Below are positions 38,837 through 47,291 of a stretch of 57,510 bases of DNA, piece by piece. The notes under the pieces were generated by a model. The model made no database searches, was not told where the DNA came from, and was given only the letters and a program-made list of their open reading frames with translations. The position numbers and the translations under genes were made by a program. Source of the DNA: Polyangiaceae bacterium (GTDB lineage Bacteria; Myxococcota_A; Polyangia; Polyangiales; Polyangiaceae); NCBI GenBank assembly GCA_022842465.1, contig JALHPN010000029.1:1-57510 (forward strand). The letters are read 5' to 3'. Within the stretch, counting starts at the first letter, position 1; each line of letters starts with the position of its first letter.

Positions 38837-40147
38837 CTACAGGTACGGGTTCTGCCGGAGCTCGGGCGATGCGCTCACGGGGGGAGTCGGCCTCGGCTTC
38901 GAAGTTGGGTGCGGGCGACGTGGGCCGCTGGTGCGGAGGGCTGGAGCCGGGGTCGCGCTAGCCGAAGACACCGGCCCAGGCACGTCGACGCGCGCTCCCG
39001 CGTCGGCGGAGGCCGAGACGTCGCGCGCGGGAGGAGGTGCCGTCGTCGTCGCGGCTGGCTCGGTCACGATCGGTTCGTGGTCGGGCGCAGCGTCACGAGC
39101 CGACCGCGCACGGAGGCCAACGACGAGTGCGACCGCGATCACCACGCCGACCACGCCGACCGTGACCTCTCCCGCGCGACTCCGATGGAGCGGTCTCGAC
39201 GGTGGCGTCGCGGCGAGGGGATGGGTCGTGAGCTCCTCGTCTCCTCTCGCGACGAGCGCGGGCGCAGTCGGCGCGAGGCGCCCCGCGGCGCCGCCGAGTC
39301 TCGCGACCTCGGCGAGAGCCGTCGCGACGAGGGCCGCGTTCTCGAACCGCCGCGACGCGTCGCGGACGATGCACCGATCGAGGACGGCCTGCAGCTCGGG
39401 CGCGTCGACCCCGCGCGATGCGAGCGTTGGAATCTCGGCGCGGAGCACGGCGGAGAACGTCTCCGACACGGTGCCGCCGCCGAAGGGATAGGTGCCCGTG
39501 ACCAGCCGAAAGAGGACGACGCCGACGGACCAGATGTCCGTCCGACCGTCGACGTCGCGAGGTCGGTCGAGCTGCTCGGGGGAGATGAACTGTGGCGAGC
39601 CGAGGACGCCGTCCGCCGACGTCAGCGTGGGCTGTCCGTTCCACTCCGCGGTCTGGACGAGCTTCGAGATGCCGAAGTCGAGCACCTTGATCGTCTCCCC
39701 GCGGCCCGGCACTTTGGCGACGAAGAGGTTCGACGGCTTGATGTCGCGATGGACGATGCCAGCCGCATGCGCCTCGGCGAGCGCCTCGCAGACGTCGCGC
39801 AGGAGCTCCGCTGCCCGCGCGACGGGAATCGGAGCCGCGCCGAGCTTCCCGAGGTCGGCACCCACAAGCCTCTCGAGGACGAGGTAAGGGCCGTACGCGG
39901 AGCTCTCGGCCACGTCGTAGACACGGACGACGTGCGGGCTCTGGAGCAACATCAGCGCGCGTGCCTCCCGTACGAGCCGCTCGTTGTCGCTCCTCAACGC
40001 CTGCTTGGAGAGGAGCTTGAGCGCGCAGCTCACGCCCGTCCGTTCGTCGAGTGCGGCAAGCACGACGCCCATCCCGCCCTGCCCGAGCACGGACTGGATC
40101 CGGTAGCGCCTCTCGAAGAGCGAGCCGGCGACGGGGACGTCAGACAT
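38837..40147 (-). CDS. Ser/Thr protein kinase (PknB-like)
   Basis: The ATG at 40147 has AAGGAG six bases upstream. The 436-residue protein is a complete Hanks-type kinase: Gly-loop Gly-Gln-Gly-Gly-Met-Gly (22-27), Lys44, His-Arg-Asp-Ile-Lys-Pro-Ser-Asn (Asp135), Asp-Phe-Gly (Asp157) and Ser-Pro-Glu-Gln. A membrane helix lies at about 330-350 with a Pro/Ala/Ser-rich extracytoplasmic tail. It diverges from the secreted protease gene, and a palindrome lies 26 bases before its start. FHA domains bind phosphothreonine, so the FHA-AAA+ regulator at 41496 is a natural partner; this is inferred from proximity. Confidence 0.92.
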   Translation of the reverse strand: MSDVPVAGSLFERRYRIQSVLGQGGMGVVLAALDERTGVSCALKLLSKQALRSDNERLVREARALMLLQSPHVVRVYDVAESSAYGPYLVLERLVGADLGKLGAAPIPVARAAELLRDVCEALAEAHAAGIVHRDIKPSNLFVAKVPGRGETIKVLDFGISKLVQTAEWNGQPTLTSADGVLGSPQFISPEQLDRPRDVDGRTDIWSVGVVLFRLVTGTYPFGGGTVSETFSAVLRAEIPTLASRGVDAPELQAVLDRCIVRDASRRFENAALVATALAEVARLGGAAGRLAPTAPALVARGDEELTTHPLAATPPSRPLHRSRAGEVTVGVVGVVIAVALVVGLRARSARDAAPDHEPIVTEPAATTTAPPPARDVSASADAGARVDVPGPVSSASATPAPALRTSGPRRPHPTSKPRPTPPVSASPELRQNPYL

Positions 40148-40172
40148 CGACTCCTTGAGCTTACCGCTGCTC

Positions 40173-40189
40173 GTGATCTGGGAGATCAC
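40173..40189. promoter_or_regulatory. Palindromic site, copy A (GTGATCT-N3-AGATCAC)
   Basis: A perfect seven-base inverted repeat with a GGG spacer, lying between the divergent kinase and protease genes. The identical arms occur at 42769. Its centre is 146 bases upstream of the -24 element of the protease promoter candidate, a normal distance for an enhancer-type site. It also lies 26 bases before the kinase start, where a bound protein could repress the kinase. Confidence 0.65.
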
Positions 40190-40273
40190 TTCGCTCCTGT
40201 CGGGTCACGCGGCTGGATCCTGTCTCCGATGGCGCCGCGCGAGCACGGGCGTCACGTGTCCGTAGAGTGCCAA

Positions 40274-40286
40274 TAAGGTCTTGAAT
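40274..40286 (-). promoter_or_regulatory. IHF-like site between palindrome and promoter
   Basis: TAA-N4-TTGAAT matches the IHF consensus (read on the opposite strand) at all but one position. It sits in an unusually AT-rich patch about 100 bases after the palindrome and 40 bases before the -24 element. This is where a bending protein would sit in a classic sigma-54 promoter. Confidence 0.35.
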
Positions 40287-40325
40287 CTCTTTGACTTGAG
40301 ATGTCGACGCGGCCTGCGCCCACGA

Positions 40326-40341
40326 GGGCACGGCGCATGCT
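40326..40341 (+). promoter_or_regulatory. Sigma-54 promoter candidate for the protease gene
   Basis: GGGCACG-N4-ATGCT matches the -24/-12 consensus TGGCACG-N4-TTGCA at the key GG and GC pairs with correct spacing. Transcription would start near 40352, leaving a leader of about 83 bases that contains the GGAGGA site before the ATG at 40435. Confidence 0.55.
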
Positions 40342-40434
40342 GCGAGGGAGAGCGGAGCCGGCAGCTCGCGACGAGGCCGAGGGGGCCGCGCCGCGACGGC
40401 GCACTCGTGCGCCCGCCGGACGAAGGAGGAGTCC

Positions 40435-41439
40435 ATGTTCCAGCAGAAGTCGCACCTCGACGCCCGCATCGCTCTCGTCGTTCTCGCCCTCGCCTCGGCG
40501 GGGATCTCGACATCCGGCTGCGCCGCCGAGACGGAAGACGATCTCGTCGACGACGGCATCGACGAGTCGGGAAGCGCCATCCTCAACGGTCGCGCGGACT
40601 CGGCGCACGCGGCGGTGGCGTCGATCCTCTTCGACAAACTCGCGACGGCGACGGGCAAGACCAGCACTTCGATCTGCACGGGGACGCTCGTCCGTCCGGA
40701 CGTCGTCCTGACGGCGGCACACTGCGTCGTGTCGACTCCCGCGGAGAAGCTCTCGAACTTCCGCGTCGCGTTCGGGCCGACGGCGACGACGGGGACGCGC
40801 GTCCCCGTCGGGAAGATCACCTCACACCCCGGCTACGTGCCGGGCACGTTCGGCTCGCCGGACGTCGCTGCCATCCTCCTCGCGCAGCCGGTCACGTCGA
40901 TCAAGCCGATCCCCGTCGCGCTCGGTCCGCTGCCGAACCTGGTCGGGAAGAAGGTGATCGAGGTCGGCTTCGGGGTCACCGCCGTCAACCCCGACGGCTC
41001 GGGAACGGGCGCCGGCACGCGCCGCTCCACCGTGACGGTCGTCGCGGCCCAGGAGCCCAACCTGCTCCGCGTCGGCGACACGAACGGCAGCGAAGGCTCC
41101 GGCTCGTGCCGCGGTGACTCGGGTGGACCGACGCTCGCGGGGACGACGTCGGGTGTGGTCGTGGTCGGCGTCCACTCCTTCGGCAGGGCGAGCTGCCAGG
41201 GCGCCTCGGCGAGCTATCGGACGGACGTCGCCGCGCCGTTCATCCGTGGTGCCCTCGCGCTGTCGCGCGCGCCCGCCGCCGCGGCTCCCCCCGCTGCGGG
41301 CGCGCGCTGCTCGGTGAACGTGTCGTGCAAGAACGGGAGCTGCGCGTGCACGGCTGGGCCGAAGGCGGGCGTGGCGTGCAGCGGATCGTCCAGCGCCGGC
41401 GCTGCGAGCTGCAGCGAGGTCTGCAAGGTGTGCGAGTGA
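40435..41439 (+). CDS. Secreted trypsin-like serine protease with C-terminal Cys-rich module
   Basis: The 334-residue protein has a signal peptide with a possible lipobox Cys (Cys29) and an acidic propeptide. An S1-family protease domain follows, with Thr-Ala-Ala-His-Cys (His96), a Ser-Pro-Asp-Val-Ala segment (Asp143) and Gly-Asp-Ser-Gly-Gly-Pro (Ser229). All three catalytic residues are present. After a Pro/Ala-rich hinge (about 280-290) comes a Cys-rich module of 44 residues. It has the pattern Ser-Cys-Lys-Asn-Gly-x-Cys-x-Cys-x-Ala-Gly-Pro and a Ser-Ser-Ser-Ala-Gly-Ala-Ala-Ser-Cys block. The small lipoprotein at 42966 carries the same module. GGAGGA precedes the start; the upstream region has a palindrome and a sigma-54-like promoter. 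Confidence 0.9.
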   Translation: MFQQKSHLDARIALVVLALASAGISTSGCAAETEDDLVDDGIDESGSAILNGRADSAHAAVASILFDKLATATGKTSTSICTGTLVRPDVVLTAAHCVVSTPAEKLSNFRVAFGPTATTGTRVPVGKITSHPGYVPGTFGSPDVAAILLAQPVTSIKPIPVALGPLPNLVGKKVIEVGFGVTAVNPDGSGTGAGTRRSTVTVVAAQEPNLLRVGDTNGSEGSGSCRGDSGGPTLAGTTSGVVVVGVHSFGRASCQGASASYRTDVAAPFIRGALALSRAPAAAAPPAAGARCSVNVSCKNGSCACTAGPKAGVACSGSSSAGAASCSEVCKVCE

Positions 41440-41495
41440 GGTAGGCCCCTCGTTGCGCGGTCGACGAGAAACATGCAACCCTCCAGGGACTAAGG

Positions 41496-42755
41496 ATGTC
41501 CGACGAGCTCCCTACACATCGGACGGAGGGCCCCGCCGACCGCGAGGCGGGGGTCGTCTTCGGTATCGTCGTCGTCGAAGGTCCCGACGCCGGAGCCAGC
41601 GTCGCGCTGGACACAAGCTCCGCCGCCCGCGTGCTCGTGGGCACGAGCCCCATGTGCACGCTTCGCCTGAACGACCGCGCCGTCTCGCGCCGGCACGTCG
41701 CCTTCCGCGCCACCGGCGGCGTGCTCGTCGCCACGGATCTCGGCTCGACCAACGGGACGACGATCAACGGCGTCAGCATGCGCGAGGCGGCGCTCCGGGG
41801 CGGCGAGGCGGTCGCGCTGGGCTCGACCGTGCTCGCCATCCGGCGCGGAGACGCCCTACCGAGCGCGATCGTCGACGCGTCGTTCGGGCGCGTGCTCGGG
41901 CGAAGCGTCGTCATGCGTCGGCTCTTTCTCCTCCTCCACGATCTCGCGCGAAGCGAGCGCACGGTGCTCCTCGACGGTGAAGCCGGCGCGGGCAAAGAGC
42001 TCGTCGCGGAGGAGATCCACGCGCACTCGTCGCGAGCGTCGCGCCCGTTCGTCGTCGTGTCGGTGCACGCGCTCGACCCGGAGGGCGTCGAGGAGCGCCT
42101 GTTCGGAGAGGCAGGGCTCCTCCGCGAGGCGTCGGGGACCGTCTACGTCGACGAGGTCTCCGCGCTGCCGGCGTCGGCCCAGGCGAGAGTCCTCGCCTTC
42201 CTCGACAGCCCTCTCCCCGATCGGTCACGCCTCGTGCTCGGCACGAAGCGCGACCTCGATCGCGACGTGCAGACCGGTCGCTTCCGCGAGGATCTCCTCG
42301 CGAAGCTCGCGACCTGTCGCGTCGAGATCCCGGCGCTCCGGGAGCGTCCTTCCGACGTGCAGGTGATCGCCGAGGCGATCTGGGAGGCGCTCGCTGCCGC
42401 CGACCCGGAGCAGCCGCAGCGGCAACTCCCGCCGGACTTCGTCCCTCGCTTCGAGAGCTATCCGTGGCCGGGAAACGTCCGCGAGCTCGAGCAGGCCGTG
42501 ACGGCACGCTACAACCTCGGTGAGATGGGCCGCTGGCGCGCGGGCAGCGGGCAGCGCCGAGGAGAGGACTTCCTCGGCGCCGTGATCGATCAGGAGCTCC
42601 CGCTCTCCGACGCTCGCAAGCTCGTCGTCGACGAGTTCGAGCGCCGCTACGTCGGCTACATGATGGCGCGCCACGGAAGCAGCCGCGACGCCGCGGCTGC
42701 GAGCGGTGTCGCGCTCCGCTACTTCCAGCTGCTCCGAGCGCGCGACCCGCGCTGA
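41496..42755 (+). CDS. FHA-domain AAA+ regulator lacking the GAFTGA loop
   Basis: This 419-residue protein has an FHA domain (about 20-115: Ser-Pro-Met-Cys, Ser-Arg-Arg-His, Gly-Ser-Thr-Asn-Gly-Thr). A sigma-54-type AAA+ domain follows (about 130-345), with Walker A Gly-Glu-Ala-Gly-Ala-Gly-Lys-Glu, Walker B Val-Tyr-Val-Asp-Glu and the Phe-Arg-Glu-Asp-Leu and Trp-Pro-Gly-Asn-Val-Arg-Glu motifs. A Fis-like helix-turn-helix forms the C terminus. Between Leu-Phe-Gly and Gly-Thr-Val-Tyr-Val-Asp-Glu about a dozen residues are missing, including the whole GAFTGA loop. It therefore probably cannot remodel sigma-54 holoenzyme in the usual way and may act as a phosphothreonine-responsive DNA binder. 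Palindrome copies lie on both sides of it. Confidence 0.88.
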   Translation: MSDELPTHRTEGPADREAGVVFGIVVVEGPDAGASVALDTSSAARVLVGTSPMCTLRLNDRAVSRRHVAFRATGGVLVATDLGSTNGTTINGVSMREAALRGGEAVALGSTVLAIRRGDALPSAIVDASFGRVLGRSVVMRRLFLLLHDLARSERTVLLDGEAGAGKELVAEEIHAHSSRASRPFVVVSVHALDPEGVEERLFGEAGLLREASGTVYVDEVSALPASAQARVLAFLDSPLPDRSRLVLGTKRDLDRDVQTGRFREDLLAKLATCRVEIPALRERPSDVQVIAEAIWEALAAADPEQPQRQLPPDFVPRFESYPWPGNVRELEQAVTARYNLGEMGRWRAGSGQRRGEDFLGAVIDQELPLSDARKLVVDEFERRYVGYMMARHGSSRDAAAASGVALRYFQLLRARDPR

Positions 42756-42768
42756 GCCGCGCGCCGTC

Positions 42769-42787
42769 GGTGATCTCGCAGATCACC
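42769..42787. promoter_or_regulatory. Palindromic site, copy B (GGTGATCT-N3-AGATCACC)
   Basis: A perfect eight-base inverted repeat with a CGC spacer, with the same arms as copy A at 40173. It begins 14 bases after the FHA-AAA+ stop and its centre is 100 bases upstream of the -24 element before the small lipoprotein gene. Confidence 0.65.
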
Positions 42788-42876
42788 AAGCGTCCATCGG
42801 GGGCCTCTCGATCCCGAGGAGACACCACCCTCGCCGCAGAGCGTGGCCAAGATGCGGGAATCCTTCGGGGACGGGC

Positions 42877-42892
42877 TGGCATCGCAGGTGCT
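42877..42892 (+). promoter_or_regulatory. Sigma-54 promoter candidate for the lipoprotein operon
   Basis: TGGCATC-N5-TGCT matches the -24/-12 consensus at TGGCA and TGC with exact spacing. The predicted transcription start is near 42903, about 63 bases before the ATG at 42966. Confidence 0.6.
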
Positions 42893-42965
42893 TCACCTCA
42901 CACCGGGTCACGCGGCGCTCTTCGTGGCGAGAGCGCGAGGTCCGCGGGCCGAGGAGGAGACCATC

Positions 42966-43340
42966 ATGTCCAAGCATGCGTTCGCGATCGTCCTTGTTCT
43001 CACGGCCGTCGCGTGCAGCGGCAGCGATCTCGCCGAGAAGGAGAGCATCGAGAGCCTCGTCACCCGGGATCCCGACATCGCGACGGTTACGGGCCAGACC
43101 AGCGCGGAGCCCGGAGTGCCCGAGGTGGTGCTCGAGACGAATCCCGACGGCGGCGCGACGCCACCGGACGGGGGCCCCTCGCGCGTTCCCGACGGCGGGG
43201 AGACGTCGTGCGGCGCGAGCATCTCTTGCTCGAATGGCGCGTGCACGTGCGGCGCAGGACCGAACAAGGGGCGGTCCTGCGTCGGCTCGTCCTCGGCAGG
43301 CGCCGCGAGCTGCGCGACGTTGTGCTACTTCTGCAAGTGA
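42966..43340 (+). CDS. Small Cys-rich lipoprotein sharing the protease's C-terminal module
   Basis: The 124-residue lipoprotein (Ala-Val-Ala-Cys, Cys17) has an acidic, Pro/Gly-rich linker (about 20-80). It then has the same Cys-rich module as the protease at 40435: Ser-Cys-Ser-Asn-Gly-x-Cys-x-Cys-x-Ala-Gly-Pro, a Gly-x-x-Cys, then Ser-Ser-Ala-Gly-Ala-Ala-Ser-Cys and a final Cys-x(2)-Cys-x(2)-Cys arrangement. It has no enzyme domain. GAGGAGGAG lies just before the ATG. It could be a surface partner, anchor or competitor for the secreted protease. The next gene starts 23 bases after its stop. Confidence 0.8.
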   Translation: MSKHAFAIVLVLTAVACSGSDLAEKESIESLVTRDPDIATVTGQTSAEPGVPEVVLETNPDGGATPPDGGPSRVPDGGETSCGASISCSNGACTCGAGPNKGRSCVGSSSAGAASCATLCYFCK

Positions 43341-43363: not shown

Positions 43364-44581
43364 ATGCCGCGCAACGTCCGTCGCGCCACCGCCACCGCCA
43401 CCGCCACCGCCACCGCCCTGCGTCGCGTGTCGCCTGCCCTCGCGACGTTGCTCTTGGTGGCATGCGACGTGATGGGGGAGTTTCGCGGCGTCGACGGGGA
43501 CTCGACGGCGGGAGACGCGGGAGTCGTGGGCGCGGTCGCGCCTGACGGCGCGCCCGTCGCCTCCACCGGCGGTCCGATGCTCGCGGGCTGCCCGCTCTTC
43601 CCCCCCGATCACATCTTCAACACGCGGATCGACGCTCTGCCCGTGCATCCGATGTCCGACACGTTCGTGCTTTCGGTCGGAGCGTGGAAGCTGAGGATGA
43701 ACGTCGGCGCGCCGGGCGAAGCGAGCCCCTCCGAGTATGGCATCCCGTACAACGTCGTGCGCGGAGCGGCGCTAGAATGGCCACTCGTCCACTACGCGAC
43801 GACGGACACGGACCTCGCGTACGACCCGCGACCCGAGAGCGACTGCGCGACGAGCGCCGCCCGAGTGCTCGTCTCGCCCTGCACCGCAGCGGCCGCGCCG
43901 AGCCCGCTCCTTCCCGTGCCGCCCTCACCTCTGGTCCAGGGCGGGCTCGTCACGGACTCGAGCCGTCCGTACGACGACTACACGATGCTGATCCTGGACA
44001 GTGACAGCTGTCGACTCTGGGAGGCGTTCGAGACGCACCCGCGCGCGGGCGGCGGTTGGAACATCTTCGGCTCGGCGTCGTTCGATCTCCGCTCGACCGA
44101 CTTGCGGCCCGACCGGTGGCGGTCGGCGGACGAGTCGGGGATGCCGATCTTGCCGCTCCTCGTCCGCGTCGAGGAAGCGCGGTCGGGGACGATCGAGCAC
44201 GCCCTCCGGTTCACGCTCGATGCGTCCTACCTGCGCAACGCGCATGTCTGGCCGGCACGACATGCCTCGGGAGACAAGACGTCCACGGCGCTGCCTGCCT
44301 TCGGTCAGCTCTTTCGGCTGAAGCCCTCGGTCGCGATCCCTGACGCCTTCAGCGTGGAGGCGAAGGCGATCCTCACCGCCCTGAAGAGGTACGGGGCGTA
44401 CGTCGCGGGCGCCGGCACGAAGAGCTGGGTGCTCACGGCCGAGCCGAGCACGTCCTGGGACCCCGCGACAATCGATCAGATCGAGTCCTTCTACGGCGAC
44501 ATGCTCGAGGCCGTGGACCTCGCGCCGCTCCAGGCGCGTCCCGGGTTCTCCGCGGACTCGGCGAAGGTGCCGGCGCCATGA
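43364..44581 (+). CDS. Uncharacterised lipoprotein with a hexanucleotide repeat in its signal peptide
   Basis: The 405-residue protein has a basic start, then Ala-Thr repeated five times, then the hydrophobic core ending in Leu-Val-Ala-Cys (Cys34). The mature part begins with a Cys-Pro-Leu-Phe-Pro-Pro-Asp-His-Ile-Phe-Asn-Thr-Arg-Ile-Asp motif (about 78-92). The same kind of Phe-Asn-Thr-x-Ile-Asp motif opens a family of uncharacterised secreted proteins. Later Trp- and Asp-rich segments suggest a beta-sandwich or propeller. No catalytic site can be assigned. It lies in one operon with the small lipoprotein before it and the TPR protein after it (ATGA overlap). Confidence 0.75.
   Translation: MPRNVRRATATATATATALRRVSPALATLLLVACDVMGEFRGVDGDSTAGDAGVVGAVAPDGAPVASTGGPMLAGCPLFPPDHIFNTRIDALPVHPMSDTFVLSVGAWKLRMNVGAPGEASPSEYGIPYNVVRGAALEWPLVHYATTDTDLAYDPRPESDCATSAARVLVSPCTAAAAPSPLLPVPPSPLVQGGLVTDSSRPYDDYTMLILDSDSCRLWEAFETHPRAGGGWNIFGSASFDLRSTDLRPDRWRSADESGMPILPLLVRVEEARSGTIEHALRFTLDASYLRNAHVWPARHASGDKTSTALPAFGQLFRLKPSVAIPDAFSVEAKAILTALKRYGAYVAGAGTKSWVLTAEPSTSWDPATIDQIESFYGDMLEAVDLAPLQARPGFSADSAKVPAP
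43385..43414 (+). repeat. (GCCACC)x5 microsatellite in coding sequence
   Basis: Five perfect tandem copies of a six-base unit encode Ala-Thr repeats in the signal peptide. Copy-number changes would keep the frame and lengthen or shorten the region before the hydrophobic core. Confidence 0.85.
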
Positions 44582-45462
44582 CCCGGGCGGTCCTCTCGCG
44601 AGCACTTCCGCTCCTGCTCCTCGGCGCGTCGCTCGCGTCGGAGCCGAGCGCGTACGCCGGCGACGCGCAGACCCGGGCAGCGGAGCTCTTCCAGGACGGC
44701 GAGCGCGCCTTCCAGATCGGGGACTACGCGCGTGCGGCGCGCCTCTTCGAAGAGGCCCAGGTGCTGCGTCCGCACCTCTCGACCCTGTGGAACGCGGCAC
44801 GCTCGCGTCATCGCGCAGGGGACGTCGTGCGGGCGGCGAACCTGTACGCGCGTTTCGTCGCGCAGTCCCCCGCGTCGTCCGAGCGGCGCATCGCCGAGGA
44901 GGCGCTCGCGAGCTTCCGGCCGACGCTCGGCGAGCTCGCGTTCGAGGCCTCGCCGGGCGCGGTCGGCGAGATCGCCGTCGACGGCGAGCCCGTCCTCGGC
45001 TTGCGCTGGTTCGTCTCGCCCGGTGAGCACGACGTGTCGACGTCCACCGAGGGGGGCGAGCGGCGTCGTGTCCGCGCCGTCGCAGGTGCCGTCACCCACG
45101 TATCGCTCGTGCCCGCGCCCGCGCCCGCGCCCGTGCCACGCCCCGCTGCGCTGCCGCTCCCGCCCGAGCGAGATCGCCAGCAACACTCGGGCCTCCCGCC
45201 GATTTTCGTCCTCGCCGGAGGCGGGCTGACCCTCGCGCTCGGCGGCGTGACGGTCTGGTCGGGCGTGGACACGCTCTCCCGTCGTGACGCTTACGATTCG
45301 AGCTTGTCGCGCGCCGACTACGACGCGGGGAAGGACGCCGAGCGCAGGACCAACATCTTGCTCGTCGGCGCTGCAAGCGCGTTCGTCGTCACCGGGCTCG
45401 TCCTTCTCCTCACGGACTGGCACGCGCCGCTCTTCGGCGGCCCCGCCGGGCGTCCGCCGTGA
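44578..45462 (+). CDS. TPR-containing exported membrane protein
   Basis: The 294-residue protein starts inside the previous stop (ATGA). It has a signal peptide (cleavage near Ala-Tyr-Ala-Gly, about 28) and two tetratricopeptide repeats (about 32-100, with Gly-Asp-Tyr-Ala-Arg-Ala-Ala and Gly-Asp-Val-Val-Arg-Ala-Ala). A short beta-rich PEGA-like region and a Pro/Ala linker follow (about 178-195). Two membrane helices lie at about 208-228 and 262-282. This is a common myxobacterial layout for periplasmic TPR proteins with a membrane tail. A role with the Cys-rich proteins of the same operon is likely but unproven. Confidence 0.75.
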   Translation: MTRAVLSRALPLLLLGASLASEPSAYAGDAQTRAAELFQDGERAFQIGDYARAARLFEEAQVLRPHLSTLWNAARSRHRAGDVVRAANLYARFVAQSPASSERRIAEEALASFRPTLGELAFEASPGAVGEIAVDGEPVLGLRWFVSPGEHDVSTSTEGGERRRVRAVAGAVTHVSLVPAPAPAPVPRPAALPLPPERDRQQHSGLPPIFVLAGGGLTLALGGVTVWSGVDTLSRRDAYDSSLSRADYDAGKDAERRTNILLVGAASAFVVTGLVLLLTDWHAPLFGGPAGRPP

Positions 45463-45551
45463 GGGCCCTGAAAGGAGTCGGCTGACGGACGCCCCGCTGA
45501 GCCGCGCCCCTTGGCCGTGCTACGCTCACCCTCGCTTGGGGAGGGCTTTCG

Positions 45552-47291
45552 TTGAGTGATCGCGCCGACATCGCGGATCCGCAGCCCCGAGGCCGGGTCG
45601 GCACCGTCATCAACGGCAAGTGGAAGGTCGACGCGCGCATCGGCGCGGGCGGCATGGCCACCGTCTACGCGGCGACTCACCGGAACGGCGGGCGGGTGGC
45701 GCTCAAGGTGCTGCACACCCACCTCTCGAAGGACGAGGGCACACGCGCGCGCTTCCTCCGCGAGGGTTACGTCGCGAACGCGGTCGGGCACCCCGGCGTC
45801 GTCGGCGTCCTCGACGACGGCATCGCGGAGGACGGGGCGGCCTTCATCGTGCTCGAGCTCCTGGAAGGAGAGACGACCGAGGCCCGCCGCGAGCGGCTCG
45901 GGGGCAAGCTCGAGATCGCCGATGCGCTCGATATCGCCGATCAGGCGCTCGACGCGCTCGCCGCTGCGCACGACAAGGGGATCGTCCATCGCGATCTGAA
46001 GCCCGACAACGTGTTCCTGACGCACGCGGGGCACGTGAAGTTGCTCGACTTCGGCCTCGCCCGCATGAAGGACGCGACGGCGGAGGCGACGCGCACGGGC
46101 GTCACGATCGGCACGCCCGAGTTCATGCCGCCGGAGCAGGCGGTGGGGAAGCGCGGCGCCGTCGACGAGCGCTCCGACGTGTGGGGGCTCGGCGCGACGC
46201 TCTTCACGCTCCTGACCGGCGAATATGTGCATGATGCATCGACACTGCACGAGCAGCTCCTCGCGAGCGCGACCCACCGCGCGCGTCCCATCCGGTCGCT
46301 CGTCCCTGCCGTTCCGCCGCCGGTCGCGCAGGTCATCGACCGCGCCCTCGAGCTCGAGAAGGAGCATCGCTGGGCGACCGCGAAGGAGATGCAGGACGCC
46401 TTTCGTCAGGCGCGGCGCCTCGCCGATCGCTACGGGGAGGACTTCTCCTCCGACAGCCTGACGGTCGCCTCGTCCCGCGACGGCGCGGTGTCGTCGGACG
46501 AGACGGTGCTGGCGCCTCGTGAGCCGCCGTCCTCCGACCAGACGCAGAGGCGCCTCTCCCCGCGCGGCTTCGCGCGCGCGCTCCCTCACGAGGACGACGA
46601 GACGGATCAGACCGAGCGCGTCCCGATCAGCGGAGACCAGCAGAGGCCGCCGCCGAGCTTCCGCGTCGCGCCGCCCGCGCCCGCCTCGACGGAGCGGGAC
46701 GTCGGGCCCGCCACGCCGCCCGTCTCGACGCCGCCGCGTACCGCGCGCCTGTCGCAGTCCTCCCCCGAGGGGACCCCCGCCGTCCAGACGCCGAGACATG
46801 GCGGGACCGCGATGATGCCTGCCTATGCGGGGCCGCACTACGTCCCGGGGCGGACGCCCGGAAGTGGCGTGCCCGCAGCCACGGGCGACGTGTTCGGCGA
46901 GACCGTCCCGATGAACGCCGAGATGATCGCGAACGCGACCCGCGCGGCGCGTGACCGGAGCGCGAATCAGCCCCACGGACCGTCGTCTCCCCAGACGCTC
47001 GCGATGTCGATCCCTCCGCACACGCCTCGGAGCGCTCCCTCGAGCCGGCAGCTGCCGAACGCGCGGCAGAGCCCGTACGGCGGTCCGACGATGGGCGGAC
47101 CGGGGCCGTCGTACGTCCCGACCGCCCCACGGACGGCGCCCGGGACCGGCGTGACGACGAGCCCCGGTGTCCGGGGGACCACGTCGCTCGCGGGCTCGCG
47201 TCGGACGGTGTGGCTCGTCGTCCTGCTCGTCGTCTTCCTGGTGGCGCTGGGCATCGTCTGGGCGCTCCTCCGCCTCGGCCACCTCTCGTGA
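45552..47291 (+). CDS. Ser/Thr protein kinase with C-terminal membrane anchor
   Basis: Translation starts at TTG, with GGGGAGGG seven bases upstream. The 579-residue protein is a complete kinase (Gly-Ala-Gly-Gly-Met-Ala loop 31-36, Lys52, His-Arg-Asp-Leu-Lys-Pro-Asp-Asn with Asp148, Asp-Phe-Gly Asp167) to about residue 290. A long Pro/Ser/Thr/Arg-rich linker (about 300-545) and one membrane helix (about 553-573) close to the C terminus follow. A TACGCT -10-like element lies at 45521. A long disordered linker between kinase and anchor is common in myxobacterial kinases. The substrate is unknown. Confidence 0.92.
   Translation: MSDRADIADPQPRGRVGTVINGKWKVDARIGAGGMATVYAATHRNGGRVALKVLHTHLSKDEGTRARFLREGYVANAVGHPGVVGVLDDGIAEDGAAFIVLELLEGETTEARRERLGGKLEIADALDIADQALDALAAAHDKGIVHRDLKPDNVFLTHAGHVKLLDFGLARMKDATAEATRTGVTIGTPEFMPPEQAVGKRGAVDERSDVWGLGATLFTLLTGEYVHDASTLHEQLLASATHRARPIRSLVPAVPPPVAQVIDRALELEKEHRWATAKEMQDAFRQARRLADRYGEDFSSDSLTVASSRDGAVSSDETVLAPREPPSSDQTQRRLSPRGFARALPHEDDETDQTERVPISGDQQRPPPSFRVAPPAPASTERDVGPATPPVSTPPRTARLSQSSPEGTPAVQTPRHGGTAMMPAYAGPHYVPGRTPGSGVPAATGDVFGETVPMNAEMIANATRAARDRSANQPHGPSSPQTLAMSIPPHTPRSAPSSRQLPNARQSPYGGPTMGGPGPSYVPTAPRTAPGTGVTTSPGVRGTTSLAGSRRTVWLVVLLVVFLVALGIVWALLRLGHLS

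Follow-up and report, generated by a model that had tools for sequence, protein, structure and literature searches.

Enhancer-binding proteins of Myxococcus xanthus that carry an FHA domain were reportedly described by Jelsbak, Givskov and Kaiser in 2005 and may read Ser/Thr kinase signals; few FHA enhancer-binding proteins have a known target. Hetero-oligomeric enhancer-binding proteins of the same species are said, by the title of the work, to be the subject of a 2012 study by Volz, Kegler and Mueller. The GAFTGA loop of enhancer-binding proteins is reported to be required for contact with sigma-54 and NtrC proteins lacking it to regulate sigma-70 promoters, with the GAFTGA-less NtrC of Rhodobacter capsulatus and of Caulobacter, and VpsR, acting at non-sigma-54 promoters (PMC10274813). 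Here, we describe a locus in a 57,510-nucleotide stretch of DNA (the window) from a Polyangiaceae bacterium, a soil myxobacterium (assembly GCA_022842465.1, contig JALHPN010000029.1), in which an FHA-AAA+ regulator gene without the GAFTGA loop lies between two identical-armed palindromes, one upstream of a trypsin-like protease gene and the other upstream of a small lipoprotein gene (Table 1). We consider it probable that a degenerate enhancer-binding protein, gated by phosphothreonine and served by its own pair of operators, is the centre of a small regulon here.

The regulator has an N-terminal FHA domain, an AAA+ domain (Pfam Sigma54_activat, 7.7e-24) with Walker A and B kept (GEAGAGKE and VYVDE in the translation), and a putative C-terminal helix-turn-helix of Fis type, which matches HTH_50 weakly (E 0.13) and appears as helices 370–393, 396–403 and 407–415 in an AlphaFold2 model (predicted local distance difference test score, pLDDT, 84). 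A survey of homologue loops found the GAFTGA loop deleted, with FGEAGLLREAS standing in its place; the loop is also absent from the whole sister clade of the regulator, whereas 24 of 30 homologues inspected, the window regulator being one of the 30, keep it or a near variant. The first-pass annotation had proposed a circuit running from kinase through FHA-AAA+ protein and palindrome to protease and lipoprotein. With GAFTGA lost, the protein is no normal sigma-54 activator and should not fire -24/-12 promoters by itself; a simple chain of this kind would call for a partner protein or a different form of polymerase. A search of the window genome with the regulator gives 50 matches at E <= 1e-30, many of them resembling FHA enhancer-binding proteins, and many of the fetched loci have kinases nearby. 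In sister-clade regulators (L004–L009 and L060; L and G numbers here label fetched loci and genomes) the arginine-finger motif is altered too, as is the Walker B Asp in three, so these proteins may no longer hydrolyse ATP. A wider scan with the regulator sequence had no matches, and one with the clade alignment returned 29 loci from Labilithrix and other metagenome-assembled genomes, mostly myxobacterial, so that the window probably derives from Labilithrix or a close relative.

The exact sequence GTGATCT-N3-AGATCAC occurs twice in the whole genome (9,571,116 bases, 431 contigs), and both copies, A and B, lie in this locus, 2.6 kb apart and flanking the protease and regulator genes. Four one-mismatch copies are listed, all within called genes (by crude gene calls), and 62 copies are found at two mismatches or fewer. 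Across 108 genomes of the family, window genome included, the exact palindrome recurs in 4 of the 107 others (867 Mb, a sum of rounded sizes), one copy each. Three of these read as protein (V-I-W-E-I-T twice, V-I-C-E-I-T once), coding status being taken from the reading frames; the two V-I-W-E-I-T copies fall in orthologous genes, radical SAM-like in appearance. The fourth, in G122, is apparently intergenic, yet is crossed by long open frames. By our own arithmetic, the family rate predicts ~0.04 copies in the window genome; two copies at such close quarters are therefore not a chance pair. The first-pass annotation stands on both exact palindromes, on their shared layout (palindrome, -24/-12 match, leader of 60–85 bases), on gene order, and on the regulator gene lying between the palindromes with a kinase gene beside the first, whose start is better placed at 40147, leaving palindrome A ~25 bp upstream of it. 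In G122, around position 4735 of L117, two dyads stand side by side, GGTGATCTGAAAGATCACC and GGTGATCTCAGCGATCACC, ~155 bp ahead of a gene whose product looks by eye like a secreted GH16 glycosidase, with a 2-mismatch -24/-12 match between.

Table 1. Features of the kinase/FHA-AAA+ locus, in window coordinates
Feature	Positions	Strand	Basis and remarks
Ser/Thr protein kinase gene (Hanks type, PknB-like)	38837..40147	-	Pfam Pkinase 1.5e-40; translated from ATG 40147
Palindrome A, GTGATCT-GGG-AGATCAC	40173..40189	.	Exact 17-mer; proposed operator of the FHA regulator
13-mer CGGGTCACGCGGC, copy 1	40201..40213	+	Common to protease and lipoprotein upstream regions
GATCC box A	40216..40220	+	+35 from palindrome A centre; order as in three sister-clade upstream regions (+37)
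-24/-12-like element GGGCACGGCGCATGC	40326..40340	+	2 mismatches to TGGCAC-N5-TTGC
Trypsin-like protease	40435..41439	+	Pfam Trypsin 1.3e-22; TAAHC and GDSGGP in translation; signal-peptide-like start then Cys (by eye)
Cys-rich C-terminal module of protease	41296..41436	+	Profile and pairwise match to lipoprotein
FHA-AAA+-helix-turn-helix regulator, degenerate enhancer-binding protein without GAFTGA	41496..42755	+	Pfam FHA, Sigma54_activat
Palindrome B, GTGATCT-CGC-AGATCAC	42770..42786	.	Exact 17-mer; 19 bp with flanking G and C, from 42769
GATCC box B	42810..42814	+	+32 from palindrome B centre
-24/-12-like element TGGCATCGCAGGTGC	42877..42891	+	2 mismatches to TGGCAC-N5-TTGC
13-mer CGGGTCACGCGGC, copy 2	42904..42916	+	Lipoprotein upstream region
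Small lipoprotein	42966..43340	+	Mostly linker plus Cys-rich module common with protease
TPR-like protein, possible further locus member	44578..45462	+	Weak Pfam TPR matches under cut-offs
Second Ser/Thr kinase gene, possible further locus member	45552..47291	+	NCBIfam PknB-like 1.8e-69, under its cut-off

Comparison with the sister clade ties the palindrome to the regulator. In the regulator tree, this clade sits in operons of a kinase, a small protein X and an FHA regulator; among eight fetched loci of this type (L047–L054, the tree being made without L054), X and the regulator occur in all eight and the kinase in six, the other two (L049, L052) being cut by contig ends, and most also carry an FG-GAP-like secreted protein (X and FG-GAP were assigned by reading, not by family search). 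At five of these loci intergenic DNA precedes the kinase gene, and in every case it contains a single -24/-12 match, three of them at one mismatch and two at two. Upstream of the three closest (G008, G005, G010), the DNA has mostly diverged, with 30% of alignment columns identical, a figure that counts gaps and the first kinase codons. The best conserved block there, GGGTGATCTGGATC, is identical at 14 of 14 positions and contains the window half-site GTGATCT; next in degree of conservation come AAGGYGATCCGGTC (13/14) and, tied at 11/14, the -24/-12 element, AAAAYAGCGATG and ATGTRGGATCACCC. In three of the five upstream regions GGGTGATCTGGATC precedes a GATCC box, at +37 from the dyad centre, and then the -24/-12 match, at 160–161 bp when counted from where the sister motif begins. 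Both window genes repeat the order of palindrome, GATCC box and -24/-12 match, the last lying 153 bp (A) and 107 bp (B) from the first base of the palindrome. This common order of half-site, box and promoter element connects the palindrome with the clade of the regulator and lends plausibility to sigma-54 promoters, and it supports the view that regulators of this clade bind the dyad together with the GATCC box.

The promoter elements themselves are less clear-cut. The consensus used was TGGCAC-N5-TTGC, with invariant GG and GC, and in both GGGCACGGCGCATGC and TGGCATCGCAGGTGC one of the two mismatches falls in the -12 part. The -24/-12 matches claimed at these positions are thus present, but they are imperfect, and over the whole window such matches are not above chance (27 found, 28.6 expected). 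Against the window background, the probability that both upstream regions contain such a match with GG and GC intact is ~0.001; reckoned, again by our own arithmetic, from how often sense matches occur in tandem intergenic gaps of the fetched loci (17 sites in 24.4 kb), it is only ~0.02. The genome does encode sigma-54. Across the fetched loci, a non-random set picked for their FHA genes and motifs, 119 tandem intergenic gaps contain 17 sense -24/-12 matches against 4 antisense, and 8 against 0 at one mismatch or fewer; by this sense excess, the group probably has genuine promoters of this kind. The two upstream regions also have the 13-mer CGGGTCACGCGGC in common, which has four copies in the genome, the two outside the locus lying within called genes; two window stretches of this size taken at random would have a 13-mer in common with p ~0.016.

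A second line of evidence comes from the products. The protease (334 aa) has a trypsin (S1) domain with its His and Ser motifs, and the lipoprotein (124 aa including Met) has no Pfam or NCBIfam match, but the Cys-rich C-terminal module of the former aligns with the latter at 50% identity over 50 aa (E 1e-6). A profile of the module built from six copies finds eight at E <= 1e-4 in 5 of the 108 family genomes, two of them here; taken on their sequences, protease and lipoprotein belong together, ending in a common rare module. Both translations begin with a signal-peptide-like stretch followed by Cys, and both products may therefore be lipoproteins. Outside the window the pairing of products recurs once, in G005, where one gene that looks like an ABC ATPase by eye separates a Cys-rich lipoprotein from a trypsin-like protease, and the FHA neighbourhood recurs once, in G004, where a lipoprotein gene for one Cys-rich copy comes immediately after a kinase-FHA pair. 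A one-mismatch -24/-12 match lies ~77 bp before the start of the G004 lipoprotein, and one G001 copy has a 2-mismatch match; none was found upstream of the G005 and G000:C8 copies or of the G005 protease, nor before the one Met tried for the G065 copy. The G005 row (L043, 971–3724) reads Cys-rich lipoprotein, ABC-ATPase-like protein, trypsin-like protease and twin-arginine-type lipoprotein, the last two partly by eye. Three GGATCC sites upstream of the G004 lipoprotein are a weak hint, from a region that stands behind 15 of 159 others by GATC-box density.

Taken together, the evidence supports both the assignment of the operator and the co-regulation of protease and lipoprotein, whereas the sign of regulation, the form of polymerase and the kinase step are matters that we infer. 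In the mechanism that we favour, the FHA domain would read threonine phosphorylation, probably made by a neighbouring Hanks-type kinase. The helix-turn-helix would bind, ahead of both the protease and the Cys-rich lipoprotein genes, the GTGATCT-N3-AGATCAC dyad and the GATCC box ~32–35 bp beyond it; the products of these two genes probably act jointly outside the cytoplasm. Control would be directed at this pair rather than at the kinase. The AAA+ domain, with its Walker motifs and without GAFTGA, should not itself open a sigma-54 promoter; most likely it would modulate sigma-54-type promoters fired by a GAFTGA-bearing FHA paralogue, through mixed oligomers or competition for sites, and less likely it would work at another promoter type or holoenzyme. 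The single circuit drawn by the first-pass annotation is supported in part, by the control element confined to the locus, the rare domain in both products and the footprint in sister operons; lone sigma-54 activation is not supported. Its step from kinase to FHA-AAA+ protein is suggested by gene neighbourhood only: at 13 of 15 FHA loci the fetched DNA (7 to 16 kb) also contains a kinase match, both misses being cut by contig ends. We offer a bolder version tentatively: the kinase-linked FHA clade, having lost GAFTGA, might still work at sigma-54 promoters as a pseudo-activator under phospho-control, diluting, poisoning or anchoring mixed rings of GAFTGA-bearing paralogues, with one copy in this genome having acquired a private operator pair for protease and lipoprotein.

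Several observations weigh against a regulator with its own operator pair. GGGTGATCTGGATC is not found as such in L047 or L048, where a GATCCGG box is retained, and L164, another locus of the kinase-X-FHA type, lacks such a dyad; the half-sites are spaced by 5 bases in the window and by 2 in the sister sites. The window palindrome was not found at fewer than two mismatches in 18 fetched relative or paralogue loci, nor at the G004 and G001 kinase-FHA loci, and palindrome pairs above GC-rich chance are absent at the 48 other fetched loci. Dyads of the form GGTGATCN{2,6}GATCACC are present in 64 of the 108 family genomes, and in fetched loci GTGATC is not enriched in intergenic DNA (0.92 per kb against 0.88 in genes; GTGATCY, 0.48 against 0.29). 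GATCC would fall in the 12-bp slot by chance at 1.4% per site, and that slot was chosen post hoc, with the window sites already seen. The two CGGGTCACGCGGC copies sit at differing distances, the window -24/-12 matches are weak, and there is no standout sigma-70 promoter match in 40140–43000, in a scan that may suit GC-rich myxobacteria poorly.

These points leave room for other explanations. The regulator could act at a promoter that does not use sigma-54, as is reported for VpsR and for the NtrC proteins of R. capsulatus and Caulobacter, with the window -24/-12 matches being chance. The missing loop fits this, as does the nominally top solved chain by sequence, NtrX, whose aligned loop likewise lacks GAFTGA, and the -24/-12 matches are no denser in the window than expected; however, the same scan that may fit these genomes badly offers no sigma-70 promoter in its place, and the -24/-12 element is kept beside the same half-site in three sister operons. 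We hold this explanation to be unlikely. Alternatively, the palindromes may belong to an unrelated factor, such as a one-domain dimeric repressor, that controls both genes and perhaps the kinase, next to whose start palindrome A lies. The breadth of such dyads across the family and the apparently intergenic G122 copy upstream of the secreted GH16-like gene are in keeping with that, but an unrelated factor would leave unexplained why, ahead of three of the sister clade's own operons, the same half-site is part of the most strongly conserved block and why the only two genome copies flank the protease and regulator genes; it, too, seems improbable to us. More doubtful still is the circuit as first drawn, in which the kinase-activated FHA-AAA+ protein alone binds the palindromes and opens the sigma-54 promoters of both genes: the spacing of the -24/-12 matches from the palindromes is sensible, a sigma-54 gene is in the genome, and matches also lie upstream of sister operons and the G004 lipoprotein, yet the loop needed for sigma-54 contact is deleted in the regulator and its entire sister clade, and GAFTGA-less NtrC proteins are reported to work at sigma-70 promoters (PMC10274813). 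Chance assembly of two unrelated palindromes has the shortness of the motif and nothing else in its favour and is highly improbable beside the expected copy number, the common 13-mer and the common product domain. It is the loss of GAFTGA that makes direct activation unlikely and leads us to prefer modulation of a GAFTGA-bearing paralogue, a kind of protein that is plentiful in this genome.

Broader schemes were tried and rejected. A genome-wide regulon under the exact palindrome is ruled out by the count of two, with the listed one-mismatch copies inside called genes, and a role for the palindromes as terminators by the lack of any terminator match in 40140–43000. That each FHA module has its own palindrome pair as a general rule is ruled out by a survey of 510 kb in 49 stretches (45 FHA loci, three Cys-rich-gene loci and the window region): it gave eight pairs where Markov shuffles gave 6, 6 and 8, and all but the window pair were built of GC-rich sequence. 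GGTGATCTGGATC was considered as a motif for a regulon across the genus, where it has 17 places in 7 of 12 genomes. At the G005, G008 and G010 kinase operons it is followed 160–161 bp downstream by a 1-mismatch -24/-12 match, and by 2-mismatch matches at 108 and 111 in L143 and L155 and at 261 in L148; the other 11 places have no same-direction -24/-12 match within 450 bp downstream (six have one on the opposite strand, three an upstream one and the rest neither). Intergenic enrichment of GTGATC or GATC in fetched loci was dropped on per-kb densities, GATC standing at 7.98 in intergenic DNA against 9.21 in genes, GGTGATC at 0.39 against 0.29 and GGATCC at 0.57 against 0.39.

Beyond the lipoprotein, the window continues (43364–47291) with a lipoprotein-like gene, the TPR-like protein and the second PknB-like kinase. 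The TPR-like protein has no significant match to the small X protein of the sister operon, but it is related (33% identity, 1e-11) to a protein encoded next to the kinase-FHA pair of G004, so that a kinase and a related TPR-like protein also accompany the G004 FHA gene. The downstream kinase and TPR-like protein, the Cys-rich module common to both products, the missing GAFTGA loop and the 13-mer all go beyond what the first-pass annotation noted.

For one FHA regulator, then, sequence is enough to name a pair of targets, a candidate operator and a comparative footprint. If this GAFTGA-less clade does work at sigma-54 promoters, it would show a way in which enhancer-binding proteins turn, in evolution, into modulators of their paralogues, and the locus is compact enough for such modulation to be tested. 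With the FHA enhancer-binding proteins of M. xanthus, the window protein has in common the fusion of FHA to a sigma-54-activator-type AAA+ domain; it and its sister clade differ in lacking GAFTGA and in having a recognisable local operator candidate. With the NtrC proteins of R. capsulatus and Caulobacter, VpsR and NtrX, it has in common an AAA+ enhancer-binding-protein fold from which the sigma-54 contact loop is missing, but those proteins carry a receiver-type domain where the window protein carries FHA, and the candidate operator of its sister clade adjoins -24/-12 matches. The hetero-oligomers of M. xanthus provide, at the level of a title, a precedent for mixed oligomers in myxobacteria, and we know of no GAFTGA-less FHA members among them. 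Open-licence literature yielded no papers on FHA, enhancer binding and kinases in Sorangium and none joining GAFTGA with FHA enhancer-binding proteins; FHA enhancer-binding proteins and GAFTGA-less ones are each known separately.

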